26,451 bases of DNA from a virus. Numbering within the stretch: position 1 is the stretch's first letter; each line of letters begins with the position of its first letter. The notes below the pieces were generated by a model. It did not search any database. It was not told the origin of the DNA and saw only the letters and a program-made list of their open reading frames with translations. The stretch covers positions 1 through 26,451 of IMG/VR virus record IMGVR_UViG_3300049433_000036. One strand, given 5' to 3'. This document shows, one piece after another, positions 502 to 18,069 of this stretch. The translations under genes and the position numbers were made by a program.

Positions 502-1449
502 ATGAAGCAATATAACGATCTGATTCGTCACGTTCGTGATACTGGTCAGCGTGAACCAAACCGTACTGGTATCGATACTATCACTACGCCCGGTGAAATG
601 CTGAAGTTCGATCTACGTGATGGCTTTCCTGCAGTGACAACAAAGAAGTTGGCTTTCAAGTCTATGTGTGGAGAACTGGTTGCATTCTTACGTGGTGCAA
701 CAAGCGCTGCTGACTTCCGCGCCTTAGGTTGCGGCTTTTGGGATCAGAACGCGAACGAGAACAAAGATTGGTTGGCTAATCCACATCGTAAAGGCGTTGA
801 TGATCTAGGTCCTGTCTATGGCTCACAGTGGCGTAAATGGGGTGGACAAGTCTACATGGCCTTAAATCCTGCCGGCGCTTCTGATACCCTACTAATAGAC
901 AGCAAAGATGTTGGTTGGTGTGAGCACAGCGCTTACCAAAAACCAATAGATCAGCTGGCACAAGCCTTGCATGATGTACGTCACAACAGCCAGAGCCGCC
1001 GCATCATTGTAAGTGCATGGAATCCAGCAGTTATGGATCGTATTGCGTTACCTGCTTGCCACATCATGTTCCAATTGCTGCCTCGCTCTGATGGTACTCT
1101 GCATATGTGCATGTACCAACGCTCAGTAGACGTTTTTCTTGGACTCCCGCATAACATCGGTTCGTATGCATTGCTGCTCGAACTGTTTGCGAAATGGACG
1201 GGTCGTATTGCTGCGACCTCGACTATGTTCTTAGCAGACACACATATTTATGTCGACCATTTACCTATGGTAGAGGAGCAACTCTCGCGTACTCCTTATC
1301 CACTACCTACTCTTGATCTGAATGACGTAATGCCCATCGATCCTACTGCAATGAGCTTGGAGTCGTTGCTTGATTGTCTGAAACCTGAGGGAATCAAGCT
1401 CGTAAACTATCAACACCACCCAGCTATAAAGGCTTCTATGGCAGTGTAA
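502..1449 (+). CDS. thyA: Thymidylate synthase
   Basis: Makes dTMP from dUMP using methylenetetrahydrofolate, in the cytoplasm; here it would feed phage dTTP supply with the dTMP kinase at 2863. Family signatures seen: VYGSQWRKW (res 105-113), RRIIVSAWNP (166-175), the active-site segment LPACHIMFQ with Cys186, YQRSVDVFLGLPHNIGSYAL (205-224) with the pyrimidine-discriminating Asn218, and the C-terminal HPAIKASMAV. At 315 aa it is longer than the 264-aa E. coli enzyme because of about 30 extra residues between Trp113 and Lys147. The residue before the catalytic Cys is Ala, where the family nearly always has Pro. A dUMP hydroxymethylase is a possible alternative because it shares the fold. Start is supported by AAGGAG upstream. 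Confidence 0.95.
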   Translation: MKQYNDLIRHVRDTGQREPNRTGIDTITTPGEMLKFDLRDGFPAVTTKKLAFKSMCGELVAFLRGATSAADFRALGCGFWDQNANENKDWLANPHRKGVDDLGPVYGSQWRKWGGQVYMALNPAGASDTLLIDSKDVGWCEHSAYQKPIDQLAQALHDVRHNSQSRRIIVSAWNPAVMDRIALPACHIMFQLLPRSDGTLHMCMYQRSVDVFLGLPHNIGSYALLLELFAKWTGRIAATSTMFLADTHIYVDHLPMVEEQLSRTPYPLPTLDLNDVMPIDPTAMSLESLLDCLKPEGIKLVNYQHHPAIKASMAV

Positions 1450-1451
1450 TC

Positions 1452-1991
1452 ATGAAACCAGAAATCTGGAAACCCGTGCACGGTTATAAATCATTATACG
1501 AAGTTTCAAATTCCGGTCGAATTCGGAGACGCGAAACTTACGTTACTAGAGTAATGAATGGTACTGTGTTGAAACAATTGGTGCGAGAACGCATTTTAAA
1601 GATGTCTGGTGCGTATCCGACGTTGAAGTTAAGTCGTAATGGTATACCGAAGACTCATTACGTTCATATTCTAGTTGCTAGAGCTTTTTTAGGTAAACGT
1701 CCTAAAGGAATGCAGGTTTGTCATAAAGATGGAAATCCTGCTAATCCCAAATTGAGCAATCTACGTTATGACACGCCGACAGGGAATGCGCTTGATAGGC
1801 ATCGTCATGGAACTCATGCCAAGGGTGAAAGTAATCCTGGTGCAGTTCTAACTGAAAAACAAGTACGTGCAATAAAACGTAACCTTAAAGAAAATTGGTC
1901 TTGTGCAGAAATAGGAGAACTATACTGCATATCTCGTCAAACTATTAGCTCTATAAAATCAGGACGTACTTGGGGCTATGTAAAAATATAA
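1452..1991 (+). CDS. HNH homing endonuclease (NUMOD4-HNH-HTH)
   Basis: A free-standing HNH endonuclease of the phage homing type, expected to cut a related genome lacking it so that the gene is copied in by repair. Visible in order: a NUMOD4-like start (EIWKPVHGYKSLYEVSNSGR, res 4-23), an HNH core with His72 in VHILVARAF, Cys90-His91, Asn95 and Asn103 in KLSNLRY, and a C-terminal helix-turn-helix of NUMOD1 type (about 132-172, ISRQTISSIKSGRTWG). It begins 2 bases after the thyA stop and has no convincing ribosome-binding site, so it may rely on coupling. Its A/T-rich composition differs mildly from thyA, as expected for an inserted gene. thyA is intact, so this is not an intron ORF. Confidence 0.9.
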   Translation: MKPEIWKPVHGYKSLYEVSNSGRIRRRETYVTRVMNGTVLKQLVRERILKMSGAYPTLKLSRNGIPKTHYVHILVARAFLGKRPKGMQVCHKDGNPANPKLSNLRYDTPTGNALDRHRHGTHAKGESNPGAVLTEKQVRAIKRNLKENWSCAEIGELYCISRQTISSIKSGRTWGYVKI

Positions 1992-2002: not shown

Positions 2003-2206
2003 ATGGAAGCCTTTCAACAGCGAGTAGTAGAAGAACAAAAAGAACTAGAAACACGTTTGATTGCACTGTCTGCATTCATCGGCACCGATAATTTCCTCAA
2101 GCTGGATGCTGAGGACCGGGACCTACTACACCTGCAGCACGATGCAATGGATACCCTCAATGATATTCTGGTAAGGCGCATTCATCGATTCGGAGCAAGA
2201 TCATGA
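2003..2206 (+). CDS. Small helical phage protein, 67 aa (crAss001_48-like)
   Basis: The start at 2003 is preferred over an in-frame ATG at 1970 because AAGGGAAAA lies just before it and the upstream ATG is buried in the HNH gene. The 67-residue protein begins with a helix (QQRVVEEQKELETRLIALSAF), then the pattern F-L-K-L-D-x-E-D-R-D-L-L-x-L-Q-x-x-A-M, and ends in a basic helix. From memory this resembles small phage proteins labelled 'crAss001_48-related', whose function is unknown. Its TGA overlaps the next ATG (ATGA), so translation is probably coupled. Confidence 0.6.
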   Translation: MEAFQQRVVEEQKELETRLIALSAFIGTDNFLKLDAEDRDLLHLQHDAMDTLNDILVRRIHRFGARS

Positions 2207-2493
2207 TTACTCATCTTGTAGTAGGTGACGACTGCTGGGATCCAACCCCCGAAGAACTACAAGAGATCCTGCGTAGATACCAGAACGCACCTTTCGCTGA
2301 TGGTGCTGTACGTGGTGTGCATATAGGTAAATTGGAAGGCACATTGCTTGGCGTCGAAGTGGAACCAGAATTGAATCTCTCGAAAGAGCAGGTACAGGAA
2401 TTGGTTACTTTGTTTCAGCAGACAGCCCTCGACCCTAATGATGGCCTCATCGTAACGCGCGCTGGTATCAAATTCATTATGGAGGCAGAATGA
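2203..2493 (+). CDS. Portal-module paralog A, 96 aa
   Basis: Unknown small protein made of two copies of a module that also occurs inside the portal protein of this window. The first copy (res 2-30) reads THLVVGDDCWDPTPEELQ and matches portal residues 285-313 (THLTAGDDVWTPTGEELQ) at about half of positions. The second copy (about 58-92) lacks the Trp but keeps LVTLFQQTALDP and GLIVTR, as in portal AQFQQAEFDP and GWVSTR. It is coupled by ATGA overlaps to the genes on both sides, the following one being its closest relative. Role is not known; an interaction with portal or a duplicated portal fragment are both inferences. Confidence 0.7.
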   Translation: MITHLVVGDDCWDPTPEELQEILRRYQNAPFADGAVRGVHIGKLEGTLLGVEVEPELNLSKEQVQELVTLFQQTALDPNDGLIVTRAGIKFIMEAE

Positions 2494-2855
2494 TTACCCA
2501 TATTGTTGTAGGTGATGCTAACTGGGCACCCACGCAAAAACAGCTAGATGAAATCAAAGAACGTTTTCTTAATGAAAAAGTTTTCGTCAATTCACCTGCA
2601 GTGAAGGTATTAATTGCATCGGGTGTACCTATGCTTGACGACCCTGACAGTCTGTTCGGACGTGTAACCTTAATGGTTACAGCAGGTACAGCCGACTGGC
2701 AACCAAGTGATGAAGACCTGAAGAAATTACATGAACAATTTCTGGCTGCCGGTAACGATAAGCACGGCTTAGTCGTTACCCGACATGGTGTCAGTGCTGA
2801 ATTCTTAGTGCACGGTGACTTTATGGTGCATGCTGGTAAAATCAAATTCAAATGA
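2490..2855 (+). CDS. Portal-module paralog B, 121 aa
   Basis: Sister of the preceding gene: both start MITH-(I/L)-VVGD with W-x-P-T and a Leu-rich helix, and their first 40 bases are clearly similar, which indicates tandem duplication. The second half (res 62-113) reads VTAGTADWQPSDEDLKKL, then EQFLAAGND, then GLVVTRHGV and HGDF; it aligns without large gaps to portal residues 286-336 (TAGDDVWTPTGEELQAL, AQFQQAEFD, GWVSTRNAV, GGDF). The two halves are separated by about 30 residues. No enzyme motif, signal peptide or membrane segment is seen. Its stop is 7 bases before the dTMP kinase ATG. Function unknown. Confidence 0.7.
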   Translation: MITHIVVGDANWAPTQKQLDEIKERFLNEKVFVNSPAVKVLIASGVPMLDDPDSLFGRVTLMVTAGTADWQPSDEDLKKLHEQFLAAGNDKHGLVVTRHGVSAEFLVHGDFMVHAGKIKFK

Positions 2856-2862
2856 GGCTACT

Positions 2863-3495
2863 ATGTTCGGTAAACTTATTACTTTTGAAGGTCAGGACGG
2901 TGCAGGTAAATCGACCCACATTCCTCTCGTCAAAGACCTGATCGAAAAGAAGTTCGGCGTAGAGGTCATCGTCACTCGTGAGCCTGGTGGTACGCCAGTA
3001 TCTGAGAAGCTGCGGGAGATCATGATCCACGACAAGATGCATGTGGAGACAGAGGCCTTGATCATGGCTGCTTCTCGGCGAGAGCACATTCATCAAGTCA
3101 TCGAGCCAGCGCTACGTGAAGGCAAATGGGTTATCTCAGATCGCTATATTGATTCGTCGTATGCCTATCAATGCGGGGGTCACGGTCTATCTGTCTCCAA
3201 GATGAATGTACTGGTGCAGTGGTCTACGAGTACACTAATGTGGCCTAATGGTCTGCTTCCTGATCTGACCCTCATGTTCACAGTAAGTGCTGAACAAGCG
3301 AGACAGCGTATGTCAGGACGCGCATTCGATAAGTTCGAGCAAGAGGATCTTGCGTTCTTCCAAAGAGTAGACAACGCTTATCGCATGCGTTTCAATTCTG
3401 ATCCTACTCGTTTCAGACTCGTGAACTCAAACTACTTCCCAGAGCAGGTGGCTGATGTATTGAAACAGGCTATCGAAAACTGGAATCCTGAGTAG
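2863..3495 (+). CDS. tmk: dTMP kinase (thymidylate kinase)
   Basis: Phosphorylates dTMP to dTDP with ATP, the step after thymidylate synthase. Seen: P-loop EGQDGAGKST (res 9-18), REPGGT (39-44) for substrate binding, the DRY motif ISDRYIDSSYAYQ (91-103), LPDLTLMF, and a LID-like stretch RMSGRAFDKFEQED before the final helices. At 210 aa it is the normal length for bacterial Tmk. ATG 2863 is chosen over an in-frame upstream ATG at 2815 because it is preceded by TGAGG, avoids overlap with the upstream gene, and starts the protein at the usual MFGKLITFEG strand. Confidence 0.93.
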   Translation: MFGKLITFEGQDGAGKSTHIPLVKDLIEKKFGVEVIVTREPGGTPVSEKLREIMIHDKMHVETEALIMAASRREHIHQVIEPALREGKWVISDRYIDSSYAYQCGGHGLSVSKMNVLVQWSTSTLMWPNGLLPDLTLMFTVSAEQARQRMSGRAFDKFEQEDLAFFQRVDNAYRMRFNSDPTRFRLVNSNYFPEQVADVLKQAIENWNPE

Positions 3496-3926: not shown

Positions 3927-4349
3927 ATGTTAACTTTAAAGCAGTTGTATTCAAAAACCACACCAGAGCGCAAAGACAGGGCGCGCTTTGTACGCATCAT
4001 TCAGACAAAGATAGGTCACAATAAACAGGGCTTAGGATACGTAGCTGCACGGACGTATTCCCGTATGAAAGTAGGTGCTGATGGCCGTCTAGTCAAAAAC
4101 GAAGACCCGCAGCACTACGTAACAGTAATTACCTTCTTGAATAAGAAGCTGCAATGCATTGTCAGTTGTTCGTGTTTTGATAATACTATGAGGTGGGAAT
4201 TTAGTAATACTCAGAAAGGTGCATCTGAAATCGAATACTCTAACGGAGAGCCTCCAGTAGTAACTAATCCTAGGCAGATTGTTGGTATGTGTAAGCATCT
4301 CTGTAAATTGTACAATACCATTCAACCTAGGCTCCCACCTGGATATTGA
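3927..4349 (+). CDS. SWIM-type zinc-finger protein, 140 aa
   Basis: Contains a C-x-C ... C-x-H zinc site of SWIM type: Cys81 and Cys83 in VSCSCFDNTMRWEFS, Cys122 and His124 in MCKHLCKLY. The segment between (GASEIEYSNGEPPVVTNP) recalls a set of phage proteins with the pattern NGEPP...NP...CKH that are annotated only as SWIM-domain or hypothetical; this comparison is from memory. The upstream part is a basic beta-rich stretch. SWIM fingers bind DNA or proteins, so a nucleic-acid role is likely but unproven. GGGAGG precedes the start. Its last 23 bases overlap the 3' end of the convergent endonuclease gene. Confidence 0.75.
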   Translation: MLTLKQLYSKTTPERKDRARFVRIIQTKIGHNKQGLGYVAARTYSRMKVGADGRLVKNEDPQHYVTVITFLNKKLQCIVSCSCFDNTMRWEFSNTQKGASEIEYSNGEPPVVTNPRQIVGMCKHLCKLYNTIQPRLPPGY

Positions 4350-5583
4350 GATCTGTAATCCAACTTATTAGGGATTCATAGTTCATTGCCTCCCATTTTT
4401 CAGGTAACTTAATACGTTTGTGCTTACGTGTAAATAATAGCACCACGTATTCATAGCCTGCTCGTTTGGCAGCCTTGGATTTGGCTCGTAACTTGAGCCA
4501 AGTTCTTTTGCTTCCCCATCCAGTGTATGTACTTTTAACCTCCACGATACAGTTTTTGTGTGGAATAAAAATATCAGGATAGTGGAAGTGAGTCCCATCC
4601 TTAAGAGAATACTCCACATGTGGTACTTTTCCTTCAGACGCTACCATCAATTGTTTTGGTTTAAACCATTTCTGTAGATAGTCTAGTGCTACAGGTTCAT
4701 AACCTTGCACCTTAACTGTTCGCTTTCCAAGTTTATAGGTTTTCATCTTTGTCTTACCCAGCGATTGTTTAAGAGCTATTTCAGGAACTTGGCTTACATT
4801 AGCTACTCCAAATTTCTCTCGGACCCCTCTCATTAGATGAGCTTGCATAGTATCGATGTTTGCTTGAATTTTAAATCTCTTCCTTAAGGTCTTAATCATT
4901 TTAGTGGTTGCTTCTGGCGAAAGTCGTTTGTCTTTATTAGCTATGTTGGCGCATATGTTCCCGCAGTAAGTCTTCCAGCCTCCTTGATGTTTTGCTGTGA
5001 GTTCCCCCTCGCAATTTTTGCAGTATGCGCGAATTGGAATTTTACCTAATGCTATCAGTTTTCGGTACTCATATGCGTCATGATTGAGATTAAACCAGAT
5101 TGGTTTCATGTCTTCTGATATGGCTTGTATAACTTTATCTTCGTTTACGCCGTAAAGAAAACTATCAAATAATTTTTGAAAATATGCTATCTGCTTTTTG
5201 GTTATCCTTGTCAATAATTTGCTTTGGTGCTTTTTCTTCTCTGAGTTAAGATTCCGTTTTTTCTTCGCGTGATATTGAGTATGCGATTCTAATTGTTTTG
5301 TGAGCTTTATCGGATCGCTATTTTGGCATTTAACTCCACACCAGTTACTGAATCTTTCTTCTCTATCAAACCAGCGCGCTTCGTTATTGCACACGCGGCA
5401 TTTGCTAATACCATGTGCGTAAATATACTGTGCTTGTTTTCGTGTATACTCAGGGTTATCTTTAACTAACGCAAGAAATGATGCGCAGTGTTGGGTTTTT
5501 TCTAAGGCAGTAAGAAACTCCAGATACTTTACTTTACCATTAGCCGCCCTGTGTTTCGTTGCCAGTTTTAAAAATGTTTTCAT
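4327..5583 (-). CDS. PD-(D/E)XK homing endonuclease with two zinc fingers
   Basis: The only leftward gene. Visible in order: a first zinc finger (CRVC, Cys62/65, with WCGVKC, Cys82/86); a Lys-rich helical linker (100-160); a second finger (YCKNC, Cys188/191, with YCGNIC, Cys207/211); a REKFGVANVSQVPEIALKQS motif (255-274) of a kind repeated in phage and algal-virus nucleases; and a C-terminal PD-(D/E)XK nuclease with QGYEP (Glu297), YPDIFIP (Asp337) and IVEVKS (Glu348, Lys350). The architecture fits a free-standing homing endonuclease, an inference supported by its opposite orientation and A/T-rich sequence. AAAGG lies about 10 bases before its ATG. The stop falls inside the SWIM gene, so transcripts collide there. 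Confidence 0.82.
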   Translation of the reverse strand: MKTFLKLATKHRAANGKVKYLEFLTALEKTQHCASFLALVKDNPEYTRKQAQYIYAHGISKCRVCNNEARWFDREERFSNWCGVKCQNSDPIKLTKQLESHTQYHAKKKRNLNSEKKKHQSKLLTRITKKQIAYFQKLFDSFLYGVNEDKVIQAISEDMKPIWFNLNHDAYEYRKLIALGKIPIRAYCKNCEGELTAKHQGGWKTYCGNICANIANKDKRLSPEATTKMIKTLRKRFKIQANIDTMQAHLMRGVREKFGVANVSQVPEIALKQSLGKTKMKTYKLGKRTVKVQGYEPVALDYLQKWFKPKQLMVASEGKVPHVEYSLKDGTHFHYPDIFIPHKNCIVEVKSTYTGWGSKRTWLKLRAKSKAAKRAGYEYVVLLFTRKHKRIKLPEKWEAMNYESLISWITDLNIQVGA

Positions 5584-5661: not shown

Positions 5662-6639
5662 ATGGCCACACATACATACGAACATAGTAAAGCCTTCGAT
5701 CTCCTTAAGCAGACGAAGGAAGCAGTAACAGGTAACTACACCAGTCTCCAATATTTGCAAACACTGGACTATTTCATCTGGGAGTCATTGCGCCCCCTTG
5801 CAGCCGAATGCCCGAGCCTGTTCTACAACTACTTCGCAAAGGTAGTGGTACGACAGACTCTGAAACCTAGTTCTAAATTCACATCTAATGAAAGAATCAA
5901 GTTACCTCTTCAGTTGTTCAATGCATTGATGGAACAAGACCAGACTAAAGCCTTTACGCTCACTCGTGAAATGTATATCAACAGAGGCATCTTGTTCGGC
6001 TTCGTCAGCTTCTTTCTCAACTCACTGAAACTTTATACTGAGCTTCAGTACAATACAAAAGTATCAGAGGTGATGCGGCGTACGTTGACCAAGCGTATCG
6101 AAGAGAATATGGGACTGCGTAAAGATGGAATGCTTTACCCTGCCATGCAGCAAGTGGACTACTGGGACAAGAAGGCGCGACAGTGGAAAGGTTTCATAGT
6201 TGAGAAATACACGCGCATGACTTTGAATCAGGCGCAGAAGACATACACTGATTTCAATCATTCAGTTCGCCTTGATGATGTGGTTCAAATTTATCTCGTG
6301 GTTGTCAACCGCTCCATCGATAGATGCGATTCCCGACAAGGTGTACTGACCACCTTTATTCAGAATTGGTTCAAGTCTGCTCGAGGCGAAGTAGCGGCGT
6401 TGGCTGAGAGCCAGCACGATTCTTCTTTTGATGCTCTAGTGGAAGAGTACGGTGATTCAGTACACGACTTTATCGGCGTGACTAATCCTAACATGGACAA
6501 GGAACTTTATGAGCAATTGGCCTATACAGCATATGTCACTGACCCGACAGGGCTTGTGCGGACCGCCTTGGGTGTACCACAATACGTATCGAGACCTGAT
6601 CGTGAACTGTTAGAGGCCCTATCGTATGAGCAGAATTGA
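5662..6639 (+). CDS. Sigma-factor-like protein (possible late sigma)
   Basis: A 325-aa protein with one stretch that matches sigma70 region 2: residues 203-241 read RLDDVVQIYLVVVNRSIDR, then CDSRQGVLTTFIQNWFKSAR. This parallels the classic D-L-x-Q-x-x-x-x-x-L-x-x-A-x-x-x-F-D-x-x-x-G-x-x-F-x-x-Y-x-x-x-W-I-x-x pattern for core RNA polymerase binding and -10 recognition. The 200 residues before it are helical without a recognised motif, and no region 4 helix-turn-helix is evident, as in T4 gp55, a late sigma that lacks a normal region 4. A role in late transcription is an inference. The next gene overlaps its end by 14 bases. Confidence 0.55.
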   Translation: MATHTYEHSKAFDLLKQTKEAVTGNYTSLQYLQTLDYFIWESLRPLAAECPSLFYNYFAKVVVRQTLKPSSKFTSNERIKLPLQLFNALMEQDQTKAFTLTREMYINRGILFGFVSFFLNSLKLYTELQYNTKVSEVMRRTLTKRIEENMGLRKDGMLYPAMQQVDYWDKKARQWKGFIVEKYTRMTLNQAQKTYTDFNHSVRLDDVVQIYLVVVNRSIDRCDSRQGVLTTFIQNWFKSARGEVAALAESQHDSSFDALVEEYGDSVHDFIGVTNPNMDKELYEQLAYTAYVTDPTGLVRTALGVPQYVSRPDRELLEALSYEQN

Positions 6640-7197: not shown

Positions 7198-8697
7198 ATG
7201 AGTAACAAAGGCACAGACCTCGACAACGTTGCTACGGGCAACAACAAACGCGCTAAGATCAGTGACAAGATTCCGTTGTATAAATTCCCCGAGAAAAAGT
7301 GGGTGACTATTCGCCTGTTCGGTTCCATCTATACTTATGGTGGCTACAACGTAGCTGTTAAAACCAAAGACGGTAAGAAAAGCGGCTTCTACACCCCATG
7401 CCCATCGTACGACCCACAGACGCAGCAGCGTGATAGCTCTATCTATGATCCGTGGCGCGACCTGGAAGCAACTCTGGCTGATGTTGAATACAACGAGCGG
7501 ATCGTTAAGTTTACCAAAGCTGGTTTCATGTGCGGTATCGGGCGTAAGGCTCAGAAAGATGCACCTCGCAAACCACCAAAGCCAAGCAAGAAAGAAACCA
7601 AATCTGGATTCAAAGATCAGGATTCGGATTCGTGGACACCTGTGCACCCGTTCCGCTTCCCGGGTGGCGTTTTGGGCAAGCTGAAAGACCTGGGTGGCTT
7701 GAACGTAGTTGAGAAGAAAGGTCAGACTAAGACCTACGCGATCACTGATCCTAAATACGGCTGTGATGTTCGTATCATGTACGATTCTAGCAAAGCACCT
7801 GCAGACCAGTACTCGGTTCAGATCGGTGAGCGCACGCCTCTGACTGAAGAGGAATTGGAGTACCTGAAGTATGATCTGAGCGATCTGCAAACAGCGGATT
7901 CCAAAGAAGAAATCAAACGCGATTTTGAGGGTTGGGCTTCGCGTAACGGCGTCAAAATCAAATCCAAGAAGTCCAAGAAGGACGATGACGACGAGGATGA
8001 TGATCTGCCGGACGATGACGACGAAGATGAGGATGAAGACGACGAGCCTAAGAAGAAAAAAGGTAAGGGCAAGAAGTCGAAGAAGGACGATGACGACGAA
8101 GACGAGGATGAAGACGAAGATCTCGACGAGGATGAAGACGAAGACGAAGATGAAGACGAGCCTAAGTCGAAGAAATCTAAATCCAAATCGAAGAAATCCA
8201 AAAAAGATGACGATGATGAAGATGAAGACGACGATGACTTCATGGATGACGACGATGAAGATGAGGACGAAGACGAACCTAAGTCCAAGAAATCTAAGTC
8301 GAAGGTAAAGCCTAAAGGCAAGAAATCCAAGAAAGACGAGGACGAGGACGACGATGATCTGGATGATGACGATGAAGATGAGGATGAACCTAAGTCTAAG
8401 AAATCCAAATCGAAAACTAAGGGCAAGTCGAAGAAATCCAAAGACGACGATGACGACGATCTGGATGATGAAGATGATGATGAAGATGACGAGGATGAGG
8501 ATGAGGATGAAGAAGAAGAGGAGGAGAAGCCTAAGTCCAAGAAATCTAAGTCGAAGGTAAAGTCCAAAGGCAAGAAGTCGAAGAAGGACGATGACGACGA
8601 AGATGAAGACGAGGATGATGACCTCGACGATGATGATGACGACGAAGATGAGGATGAGCCGAAAAAGAAGGCCAAGTCCAAAAAGAAAAAGAAGTAA
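7198..8697 (+). CDS. Putative ssDNA-binding protein with Lys/Asp repeat tail
   Basis: Residues 1-254 form a folded core: KKWVTIRLFGSIYTYGGYNV looks like an OB-fold strand pair, FPGGVLGKLKDLGGLN and YGCDVRIMYDSSKAPADQY resemble phage gp32-type ssDNA-binding proteins (from memory), and ERTPLTEEELEYLKYDLSDL closes the core. T4 gp32's exact zinc signature is not present. Residues 255-499 are a tail of six basic/acidic blocks. Acidic C-terminal tails are usual for phage and bacterial SSBs and recruit partner proteins, but this one is unusually long and alternates charge. The gene directly precedes the recombinase, as expected for replication and recombination functions. AAGGAAAT precedes ATG 7198; a strong terminator follows. 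A structural DNA-condensing protein is the main alternative. Confidence 0.65.
   Translation: MSNKGTDLDNVATGNNKRAKISDKIPLYKFPEKKWVTIRLFGSIYTYGGYNVAVKTKDGKKSGFYTPCPSYDPQTQQRDSSIYDPWRDLEATLADVEYNERIVKFTKAGFMCGIGRKAQKDAPRKPPKPSKKETKSGFKDQDSDSWTPVHPFRFPGGVLGKLKDLGGLNVVEKKGQTKTYAITDPKYGCDVRIMYDSSKAPADQYSVQIGERTPLTEEELEYLKYDLSDLQTADSKEEIKRDFEGWASRNGVKIKSKKSKKDDDDEDDDLPDDDDEDEDEDDEPKKKKGKGKKSKKDDDDEDEDEDEDLDEDEDEDEDEDEPKSKKSKSKSKKSKKDDDDEDEDDDDFMDDDDEDEDEDEPKSKKSKSKVKPKGKKSKKDEDEDDDDLDDDDEDEDEPKSKKSKSKTKGKSKKSKDDDDDDLDDEDDDEDDEDEDEDEEEEEEKPKSKKSKSKVKSKGKKSKKDDDDEDEDEDDDLDDDDDDEDEDEPKKKAKSKKKKK
7960..8694 (+). repeat. Six-unit purine-rich repeat coding the polyampholyte tail
   Basis: Coding repeat of six imperfect units of about 34-50 codons, each running KKSKK, a D/E-only run of about 12-25 residues broken by one Leu or Phe-Met, then EPKSKKSKSK or similar. 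Some units are near-identical at DNA level: 33 bases at 8278-8310 recur exactly at 8530-8562, and about 35 bases at 8068-8102 recur at 8569-8603. Other unit boundaries differ in length, pointing to repeated unequal recombination. The + strand is almost purely A/G with GAY/GAR/AAR codons, which produces long spurious open frames on both strands. Confidence 0.9.
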
Positions 8698-16227: not shown

Positions 16228-18069
16228 ATGTTCCCTCGTAATCGCGTAACTGGCGTTCAAGGTGGTAAGATACGCACCGAAATGCGCGCACCAGAAATTT
16301 CCAGCTATAGTAGTGGTCGTAAGTATGCAGAGGCAAAGACAGAGGTTCGGGCCGAGCTTGGTGGCTTCGGTCAATCAGGCGCCGGCAATAGTCTCAGCGT
16401 AAATTCCTACTGGGCATCTCAGTATCAGTATTATTTCACAGGCCTTATTCCGGCAGAGCCAGGTTACGCTGATACTTCGCAGTTAGCTCTGTTCTATAGG
16501 GATATATATCAGAACGATGCAACCGCCGGTTCCGTGGTAGACATTCAATCGAGCTTCCCTTTCTCCGATTTCGATCTACGAGGTCTTGAGGAAGATCAAC
16601 TTAAGGTATATCGTGAGAGTCTCGATCAACTGAATGTCTTGCGCATGATGCCGATCATGAGTACAGCTTACCTAGTGGATGGTTTCTTCTGCGGCAGCCT
16701 AGTCTTTGATCCTCAGACAAAGCGATTCCTCGACACTCTGGTTCACGACGCATTGCAATGTCAGGTTGTACCAAGCCCATTCTTTAATCAGATGCCGACC
16801 ATCAGCGTCCTGACATCTAATGCGACGAATGAGCTTCTGATATCGGACAGTCAGTTCAATCGTGAGTACCTAAGCAGTTTGCCTCAGTCGTTCATAGAAC
16901 TACTGAAGCAAGGACAGTTCACTTTGAATCCTATATCGACTCTGTTTGTTGGTCGTCGTAATCTGACAGACAGAGCCTATATGTCGTTCCTGCACCGCAT
17001 CCTGCCAATGTATCTAATCGAAAAAACGATGTTCAGAGGTACGCTGGTCGAGGCCTCTCGTCGTCAACGGGCTACCACTCACTTGACTGCGGGCGATGAT
17101 GTATGGACTCCTACCGGAGAAGAACTACAGGCATTGGTCGCTCAATTCCAGCAAGCTGAATTCGATCCTCTAGGTGGTTGGGTATCTACACGTAATGCAG
17201 TGCAGGTCAATGATATTCGTCCAGGTGGCGATTTCTGGAAGTGGACCGATATGGCTGATATTCTAGTCGGCTATAAGCTACGGGCCTTAGGTACCTCGGA
17301 ATCATTCTTGAGTGGTGAGAGCTCCTACGCTGCCGCTGAATCCGCTTATAACGTATTTTTGGAGTCGCAGGATACGTATCGCCGTCATTTAACTAATGCA
17401 GTATTCGATTCCACTTTATTCCCTTTAATAGCAGTTGCTAACAACTTCTACAAAGAAGGTACCCCCGCCGAAGCTAGAGTCAAGCGTAACCAAGTCAGCA
17501 AATATTTGATGCACTCGAAGAACAGAGCCAATCTGTCCATGCCTCAGTTGGTGTGGCATAAATCGCTTGAAGCCAAGAATGAAGAAAATACGTTCGAAAT
17601 GCTGGAGCAGGCATCGGAGAAAGGTGTACCTATCCCACTGAAAGCCTGGATGGCGGCAGCAGGTCTGAACGTTGAGACCTTGCTGAAAGATCTGAAGGCA
17701 GATAACGATCTGCGTAGCCGCATCAAGAAATTCACTGGTAAGGATACTGGTCACGAATCTGAAGAACAGGTCGAGGCAGCCTTCCGCCCTACGGTTCAAT
17801 CTATCAAGAGTGGTGCTATTGGTCGTCGTTCGCTTCTAGGTCGTAATTTCGGTGAACCTGAAATGTTCACGATCGGTAAGACAGGTAAGCAAGAGCATAT
17901 TTTCCATAACTCTCGTGGCAAGATGCGTGACTACAATGCAGTTATAGCCAAGATCGCCAATCGCATGGAGACTGACAAAGAGTATCGTCTGAAAGTTGCT
18001 AAGGCAAACGTGGATCGTTTGGGGTATAAGACTGTACCTCTGGCTGGTCATCTGCCTGTGAAAGGATAA
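16228..18069 (+). CDS. Portal protein
   Basis: 613 aa; forms the ring at the capsid vertex through which TerL packages DNA and to which the tail attaches. Assigned from its size, place after terL, and typical features: FYRDIYQNDATAGSVVDIQS (89-108) at the head of the fold, SYAAAESAYNVFLESQDTY in the stem-helix region, and MADILVGYKLRALGTSESFL before it. Residues 284-338 (THLTAGDDVWTPTGEELQ through GGDFWKW) form a module also found in two small proteins at 2203-2855. The C-terminal 100 residues are basic and may be a crown or capsid-facing part. Start is supported by AAGGATATAAC. Confidence 0.82.
   Translation: MFPRNRVTGVQGGKIRTEMRAPEISSYSSGRKYAEAKTEVRAELGGFGQSGAGNSLSVNSYWASQYQYYFTGLIPAEPGYADTSQLALFYRDIYQNDATAGSVVDIQSSFPFSDFDLRGLEEDQLKVYRESLDQLNVLRMMPIMSTAYLVDGFFCGSLVFDPQTKRFLDTLVHDALQCQVVPSPFFNQMPTISVLTSNATNELLISDSQFNREYLSSLPQSFIELLKQGQFTLNPISTLFVGRRNLTDRAYMSFLHRILPMYLIEKTMFRGTLVEASRRQRATTHLTAGDDVWTPTGEELQALVAQFQQAEFDPLGGWVSTRNAVQVNDIRPGGDFWKWTDMADILVGYKLRALGTSESFLSGESSYAAAESAYNVFLESQDTYRRHLTNAVFDSTLFPLIAVANNFYKEGTPAEARVKRNQVSKYLMHSKNRANLSMPQLVWHKSLEAKNEENTFEMLEQASEKGVPIPLKAWMAAAGLNVETLLKDLKADNDLRSRIKKFTGKDTGHESEEQVEAAFRPTVQSIKSGAIGRRSLLGRNFGEPEMFTIGKTGKQEHIFHNSRGKMRDYNAVIAKIANRMETDKEYRLKVAKANVDRLGYKTVPLAGHLPVKG
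17077..17241 (+). repeat. Portal module shared with the 2203-2855 genes
   Basis: Codes portal residues 284-338. The pattern T-x-L-x-x-G-D-D-x-W-x-P-T-x-E-E-L-Q ... Q-F-x-x-A-x-x-D-x-x-G-x-x-V-x-T-R-x-x-V ... G-D-F recurs once here, twice in the 96-aa protein and twice in the 121-aa protein. A shared DNA word GAAGAACTACA is seen in both the portal copy and the 2203 gene. Confidence 0.72.

Follow-up and report, generated by a model that had tools for sequence, protein, structure and literature searches.

Small tandem proteins homologous to the portal clip domain, encoded apart from the portal gene in a viral record

In a linear viral record of 26,451 bases (IMGVR_UViG_3300049433_000036; hereafter the window, meaning the whole stretch of DNA analysed), two adjacent genes encode small proteins homologous to the clip domain of the portal protein, a relationship that we regard as established from profile comparisons of their sequences. 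The genes, both on the plus strand, specify tandem stand-alone clip proteins of 96 aa (P0001, 2203..2493) and 121 aa (P0002, 2490..2855). An earlier note on this DNA had proposed that each holds two copies of a module present once in the portal, and both PHROG family 16240 and a portal-only profile bear this out. The portal itself, a 613-aa protein assigned to PHROG 16240 (16228..18069, plus strand; E 7e-167, and by its predicted fold), is encoded by a gene that starts 13.4 kb downstream of the small clip genes.

Homology of the small proteins to the portal clip

Within the window, BLAST matches the 96-aa protein to the portal at E 3e-7, and the PHROG 16240 portal family matches both small proteins along two stretches in each, with E 1.3e-9 for the 121-aa and 2.4e-4 for the 96-aa protein. 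A profile made from the portal clips of 13 other phages, with neither the window's portal nor any small protein among its sequences, finds P0001 at 7.9e-17 and P0002 at 2.4e-16, with two copies each (E-values for a search size of the window's 425 ORFs). In the opposite direction, which the earlier note had suggested as a check, a profile of the four window copies retrieves the portal at E 1.3e-14, the best of the window's other ORFs scoring 0.8; it also ranked all 14 portals ahead of any of 4000 decoys obtained by shuffling portals. Proteins from other phages agree with this: with a profile of five modules from their small proteins, E is 1.4e-18 and 3e-15 for the two window proteins and 2.7e-21 for the portal, and tblastn matches between the window proteins and members of the stand-alone clip family (BcepSauron gp210, Motura gp019) have E-values of 6e-6 to 2e-3. 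A chance or convergent motif might be invoked for such matches, since W-x-P-T-x-E-x-L is a common helix cap that also occurs in plant WOX homeodomains, and a search of PDB sequences with the module profile returned only helix-cap look-alikes, among them weak matches to WOX homeodomains (E 0.0036). However, the portal-only profile reaches E 1e-16 across the strand-helix-strand element, and shuffled portals never approach this; the two results refute the explanation, to which we assign a negligible probability.

The small proteins share homology with the clip region of PHROG 16240, but they consist of two clip modules only, and the wing and stem domains needed for a 12-fold head ring are absent, so that P0001 and P0002 are not portal proteins. 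They belong to the stand-alone clip family, that is, clip modules outside the portal in a phage with a PHROG 16240 portal. They fall outside PHROG 11049, whose members have an N-terminal domain plus clip over 182 residues; the match of P0002 is confined to positions 101-138 (E 0.0045).

The portal part of the module, placed by the earlier note at residues 284-338, is better delimited at about 281-333 (17068..17226, plus strand) from profiles and predicted structure; an HGDF/GGDF resemblance that the note also listed lies outside the part recognised by the portal profile and is unsupported on its own. The predicted portal structure (helix 254-282, strand 283-288, helix 297-311, strand 317-322, helix 339-353) comes from a 42-row alignment, has a mean pLDDT of 70, with 55-83 over the module, and finds its best structural matches in the solved portals of T4, lambda, G20c and phiKZ (Z up to 18.8). 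Because the strand-helix-strand element sits between two stem helices, the module is, according to this model, a beta-alpha-beta clip, and the window's portal is predicted to have the T4-type clip fold. In T4, the packaging motor gp17 and the neck attach at the clip tip, and subunits make main-chain contacts with each other in the clip sheet only (PMC4493910). The portals carry a tip motif, G-x(2-4)-W-x-P-[TS], whose G, W and P vary little or not at all among them; it is kept in 18 of the 22 stand-alone modules and is the best-kept part of them. By eye and from published residue numbers, the portal G-D-D-x-W-x-P-T can be placed at T4 G-N291-M292-P, the gp17-contacting tip; HHalign of the portal profile against the single T4 gp20 sequence did not align the clip.

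In P0001, copy 1 (residues 1-42, 2203-2328) covers profile positions 3-30, with strand 1, tip and helix, and copy 2 (residues 47-94, 2341-2484) covers positions 16-46, with helix and strand 2. In P0002, copy 1 (residues 1-42, 2490-2615) supplies strand 1, tip and helix (positions 3-29), and copy 2 (residues 58-104, 2661-2801) is complete (positions 1-47). This two-copy architecture recurs in BcepSauron and BcepSaruman, in Motura, and in an orthologous 97-aa ORF of G031 that has the same two halves (positions 2-25 and 16-47, each weak individually); in BcepSauron gp210, a half copy is followed by a full copy. Several single-module members have extra sequence past strand 2, where the portal returns to the stem. 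For the 121-aa protein, AlphaFold gave a low-confidence model (pLDDT 55), with strands at 60-64 and 102-106 and a helix at 74-87, and comparison of this model with the clip fold gives Z 2.6. Foldseek placed portals at ranks 1-9 in the PDB, none of them significant (E 0.8 or worse), and among viral models returned BcepSauron gp210 first (E 0.0024), followed by the PaBG portal; as the input alignment contained portal clips, these matches serve as supporting evidence only.

Distribution, gene neighbourhood and age of the family

As the earlier note described, the two ORFs stand in tandem and are translationally coupled. They share an ATGA at 2490-2493, and a 67-aa ORF directly upstream (2003..2206, plus strand) overlaps the 96-aa ORF in the same manner at 2203-2206; their Shine-Dalgarno sequences are GGAG at 2192-2195 and GGAGG at 2481-2485, respectively. 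A relative of the 67-aa ORF (52% over 67 aa) also adjoins the clip-like gene of the related contig G030. The same gene run includes, upstream, a thymidylate synthase (502..1449, plus strand; Pfam PF00303, E 5e-83) and, between it and the clip genes, a NUMOD4/HNH homing-type endonuclease (1452..1991, plus strand; Pfam), while a thymidylate (dTMP) kinase (2863..3495, plus strand; Pfam PF02223, E 5e-39; Shine-Dalgarno GAGG) starts 7 nt past the 121-aa ORF. The thymidylate synthase appears to be a homing hotspot: it is intact in the window and followed by the NUMOD4/HNH gene, it is interrupted in G030 by a GIY-YIG-like ORF of about 270 aa (L180 5592-7666), and an ORF similar to the latter precedes its 3' part in G034 (L191 5457-6749). 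Elsewhere in the window, 7198-8697 encodes a 499-aa protein that has, towards its C-terminus, a long stretch in which Lys/Ser blocks alternate with Asp/Glu blocks; its relatives occupy the corresponding position in G011, G023 and G030. A 418-aa ORF on the minus strand (4327-5583), related to part of a G031 ORF, may encode a zinc-finger endonuclease.

The portal belongs to a group found in jumbo phages, including PaBG, Lu11, Motura, BcepSauron and BcepSaruman, and many Erwinia and Dickeya phages. Module-profile searches of whole records found the portal every time and, besides it, stand-alone modules in about 19 records: BcepSauron, BcepSaruman, Motura, Lu11, about 14 metagenomic records and the window. 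By phage name, the hosts are Burkholderia (BcepSauron and BcepSaruman), Achromobacter (Motura) and Pseudomonas (Lu11). Of 16 named phages with this portal that were searched, 12 yielded no stand-alone clip copy, which argues that its function is dispensable. The proteins that carry the modules vary, from 80-aa single modules through tandem proteins to C-terminal fusions (gp49_66-type, Lu11 gp133 type), and for some copies the fusion partner is an unrelated domain, Phage_gp49_66, in a protein of 280 aa. The stand-alone proteins share only about 25-45% identity, and scanning viral contigs for exact peptides of P0001 and P0002 gave no match because the family diverges too fast. A search of open-licence papers found no description of stand-alone clip proteins. 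In databases, the 154-aa tandem-clip proteins of BcepSauron and BcepSaruman bear the RefSeq name 'portal protein' (NC_049851.1 118595-119059, L004 5992-6456; NC_049850.1 118317-118781, L005), with the true portals as separate genes, and this label is likely a naming error that arose through clip similarity; other stand-alone members are placed in PHROG 11049 and annotated as function unknown.

Two further sets of proteins gave matches too weak to be counted in the family. One is a family of 368-455 aa in three phages (L177 3970-5085, L178 3607-4965, L179 4807-5910), with a weak clip-like strand-helix-strand near the start (R-x-x-H-[IV]-Q-V-x-x-N-P; module E 1e-6 to 1e-3). The other comprises L166 4487-5077 (PHROG 1485 type) and L167 4183-4755, the end of which resembles the second half of the clip, helix plus strand (E 1e-4 to 1e-2); this locus is syntenic with the window, sharing families at window 3927-4349 and 5662-6639.

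Among the relatives, thymidylate synthase adjoins a clip-like gene in Motura, G030 and G011 as it does in the window, and a ThyX-like gene does so in G031. A phage GroES gene is found no more than 2.5 kb from the clip-like gene in BcepSauron, Motura, G036, G041 and G055, and farther away in G047 and G057; in the records with both genes, portal and GroES are 22-81 kb apart. The p values for thymidylate synthase adjacency (3 of 9 full records with a match to the enzyme, p 0.0016) and for GroES proximity (5 of 7 records holding both, p 7e-7 under random placement) take no account of common descent; some of the loci have further genes in common, and the proximity may in part be inherited gene order.

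The earlier note saw in the small proteins a domestication of a portal fragment. This is plausible, because every portal of the family has a clip at this place, and on that ground the direction from portal to small protein is likely; however, such a domestication would be old, and with a family spread over about 19 phage records it is no event of this phage. In a tree of 52 columns, with which a single origin and several origins may both be compatible, the stand-alone modules mostly form long branches apart from the portals. Likeness to the phage's own portal is above expectation overall (p 0.0014), but inside the main clade p is 0.13; the signal is carried by the Lu11/G015/G016 clade and holds only between clades. 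The long branches and the absence of an own-portal signal in the main clade argue against recent copies, and the stand-alone clip proteins are, judging from these comparisons, an old, fast-evolving family.

Possible functions

We tentatively read P0001 and P0002 as soluble clip mimics that would bind a clip partner to time portal assembly or motor docking, a proposal whose chances we put a little short of even. With the tip motif, strand and helix kept and the stem anchors and wing lost, a soluble clip mimic is the simplest reading, and a tandem of complementary copies would be in keeping with mimicry of the sheet between subunits. Such a mimic would be made from an operon with pyrimidine-nucleotide genes, and its copies, strand-tip-helix and then helix-strand, would reproduce in one chain the strand exchange of neighbouring clips. 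One candidate partner is the edge strand left open in the clip of a portal subunit; others are the components that dock at the clip tip (the large terminase motor, the neck adaptor). By such binding, the mimic would set the timing of portal ring assembly and motor docking or protect these steps. A part in assembly would agree with the GroES genes nearby. The location of the genes far from the head genes and beside thymidylate synthase or, in G031, a ThyX-like gene gives no pointer to assembly, and dispensability, fusions to unrelated domains and the low-confidence 121-aa model (pLDDT 55) count against a clip mimic. The wider proposal, that jumbo phages copied the motor-docking clip into a soluble tandem-clip family that controls the timing of portal assembly and packaging and which phage's portal is used, is possible but more doubtful.

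Thymidylate neighbours fit early-operon co-expression or an unrelated reuse, and it is conceivable, if on the whole unlikely, that a portal-derived domain serves outside portal function, e.g., as a small oligomerisation or adaptor module for nucleotide-metabolism or other early proteins. Such reuse would suit an operon shared with thymidylate synthase and dTMP kinase and the thymidylate synthase or ThyX adjacency in relatives, the module at the C-end of unrelated proteins (the 280-aa gp49_66-type, the Lu11 gp133 type), and fast divergence, with main-clade sequences showing no tie to the portal of their own phage. It sits poorly, however, with a tip motif retained better than anything else, with a GroES adjacency stronger than that of thymidylate synthase, and with the relative G048, which has thymidylate synthase and a DHFR-like gene at the corresponding place and no clip gene.

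A patchy distribution, rapid divergence and small products encoded in an accessory region are also typical of conflict genes, and Avs4 recognises portals (PDB 8dgf, 'Avs4 bound to phage PhiV-1 portal'). A soluble clip might thus be a counter-defence decoy that occupies portal-recognising host sensors of the Avs4 type or blocks the portals or motors of competitors. Yet nothing specific points there, a portal fragment might instead trigger the sensor, and we consider a decoy improbable; no paper with 'Avs4' together with 'clip domain' was found in the open-licence literature. Partial copies, with several modules weak or truncated, could be taken as decaying, functionless fragments of former portal duplications. 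Intact ORFs, ribosome-binding sites and translational coupling speak against decay, as do a tandem architecture recurrent in diverged phages and a tip motif conserved at about 25-45% identity, and we regard it as very improbable.

If the clip-mimic reading is true, the intramolecular imitation of a portal subunit interface would represent a previously undescribed kind of regulator. Viral DNA packaging hinges on the clip, which meets first the motor and afterwards the neck, and a natural free-standing clip would be a ready tool for testing which clip contacts suffice for motor or neck binding. It would also be a candidate natural packaging regulator or inhibitor, or a decoy in phage-host conflict. 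For annotation, the correction concerns small proteins called 'portal protein' in databases.

Comparison with known systems

T4 has a portal-assembly chaperone of the gp40 type, which binds the portal and promotes ring assembly. The clip of T4 gp20 (residues 279-358) resembles the module of the window's portal in its stem-helix position, its strand-tip-helix-strand order and, by eye, its G-N-M-P tip; unlike the small proteins it is part of a full portal, and HHalign with the single gp20 sequence detected no sequence similarity. The jumbo portal of the PaBG/Lu11 type (PHROG 16240) has the clip module, beta-alpha-beta in the predicted portal structure, and the G-x(2-4)-W-x-P-T tip in common with the window proteins, whereas these have no wing, stem, crown or C-terminal region, hold two copies, and are encoded by separate genes 13-14 kb from the portal gene. 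PHROG 11049 proteins (Lu11 gp133 type) are alike in having one clip module, and differ in an N-terminal domain of about 110 residues that is absent from the window proteins. Closer in build are BcepSauron gp210 and BcepSaruman gp209 (154 aa), which likewise are small, have two clip modules and are encoded far from the real portal gene; their second module is much closer to portals, they have an extra C-terminal region, and their genes adjoin GroES, whereas those of the window adjoin thymidylate synthase. Motura gp019 (189 aa, hypothetical) likewise has two clip modules, and its gene has an ATGA overlap with thymidylate synthase, with GroES next; it differs in an N-terminal extension of about 55 residues, a long linker, and one gene in place of two.
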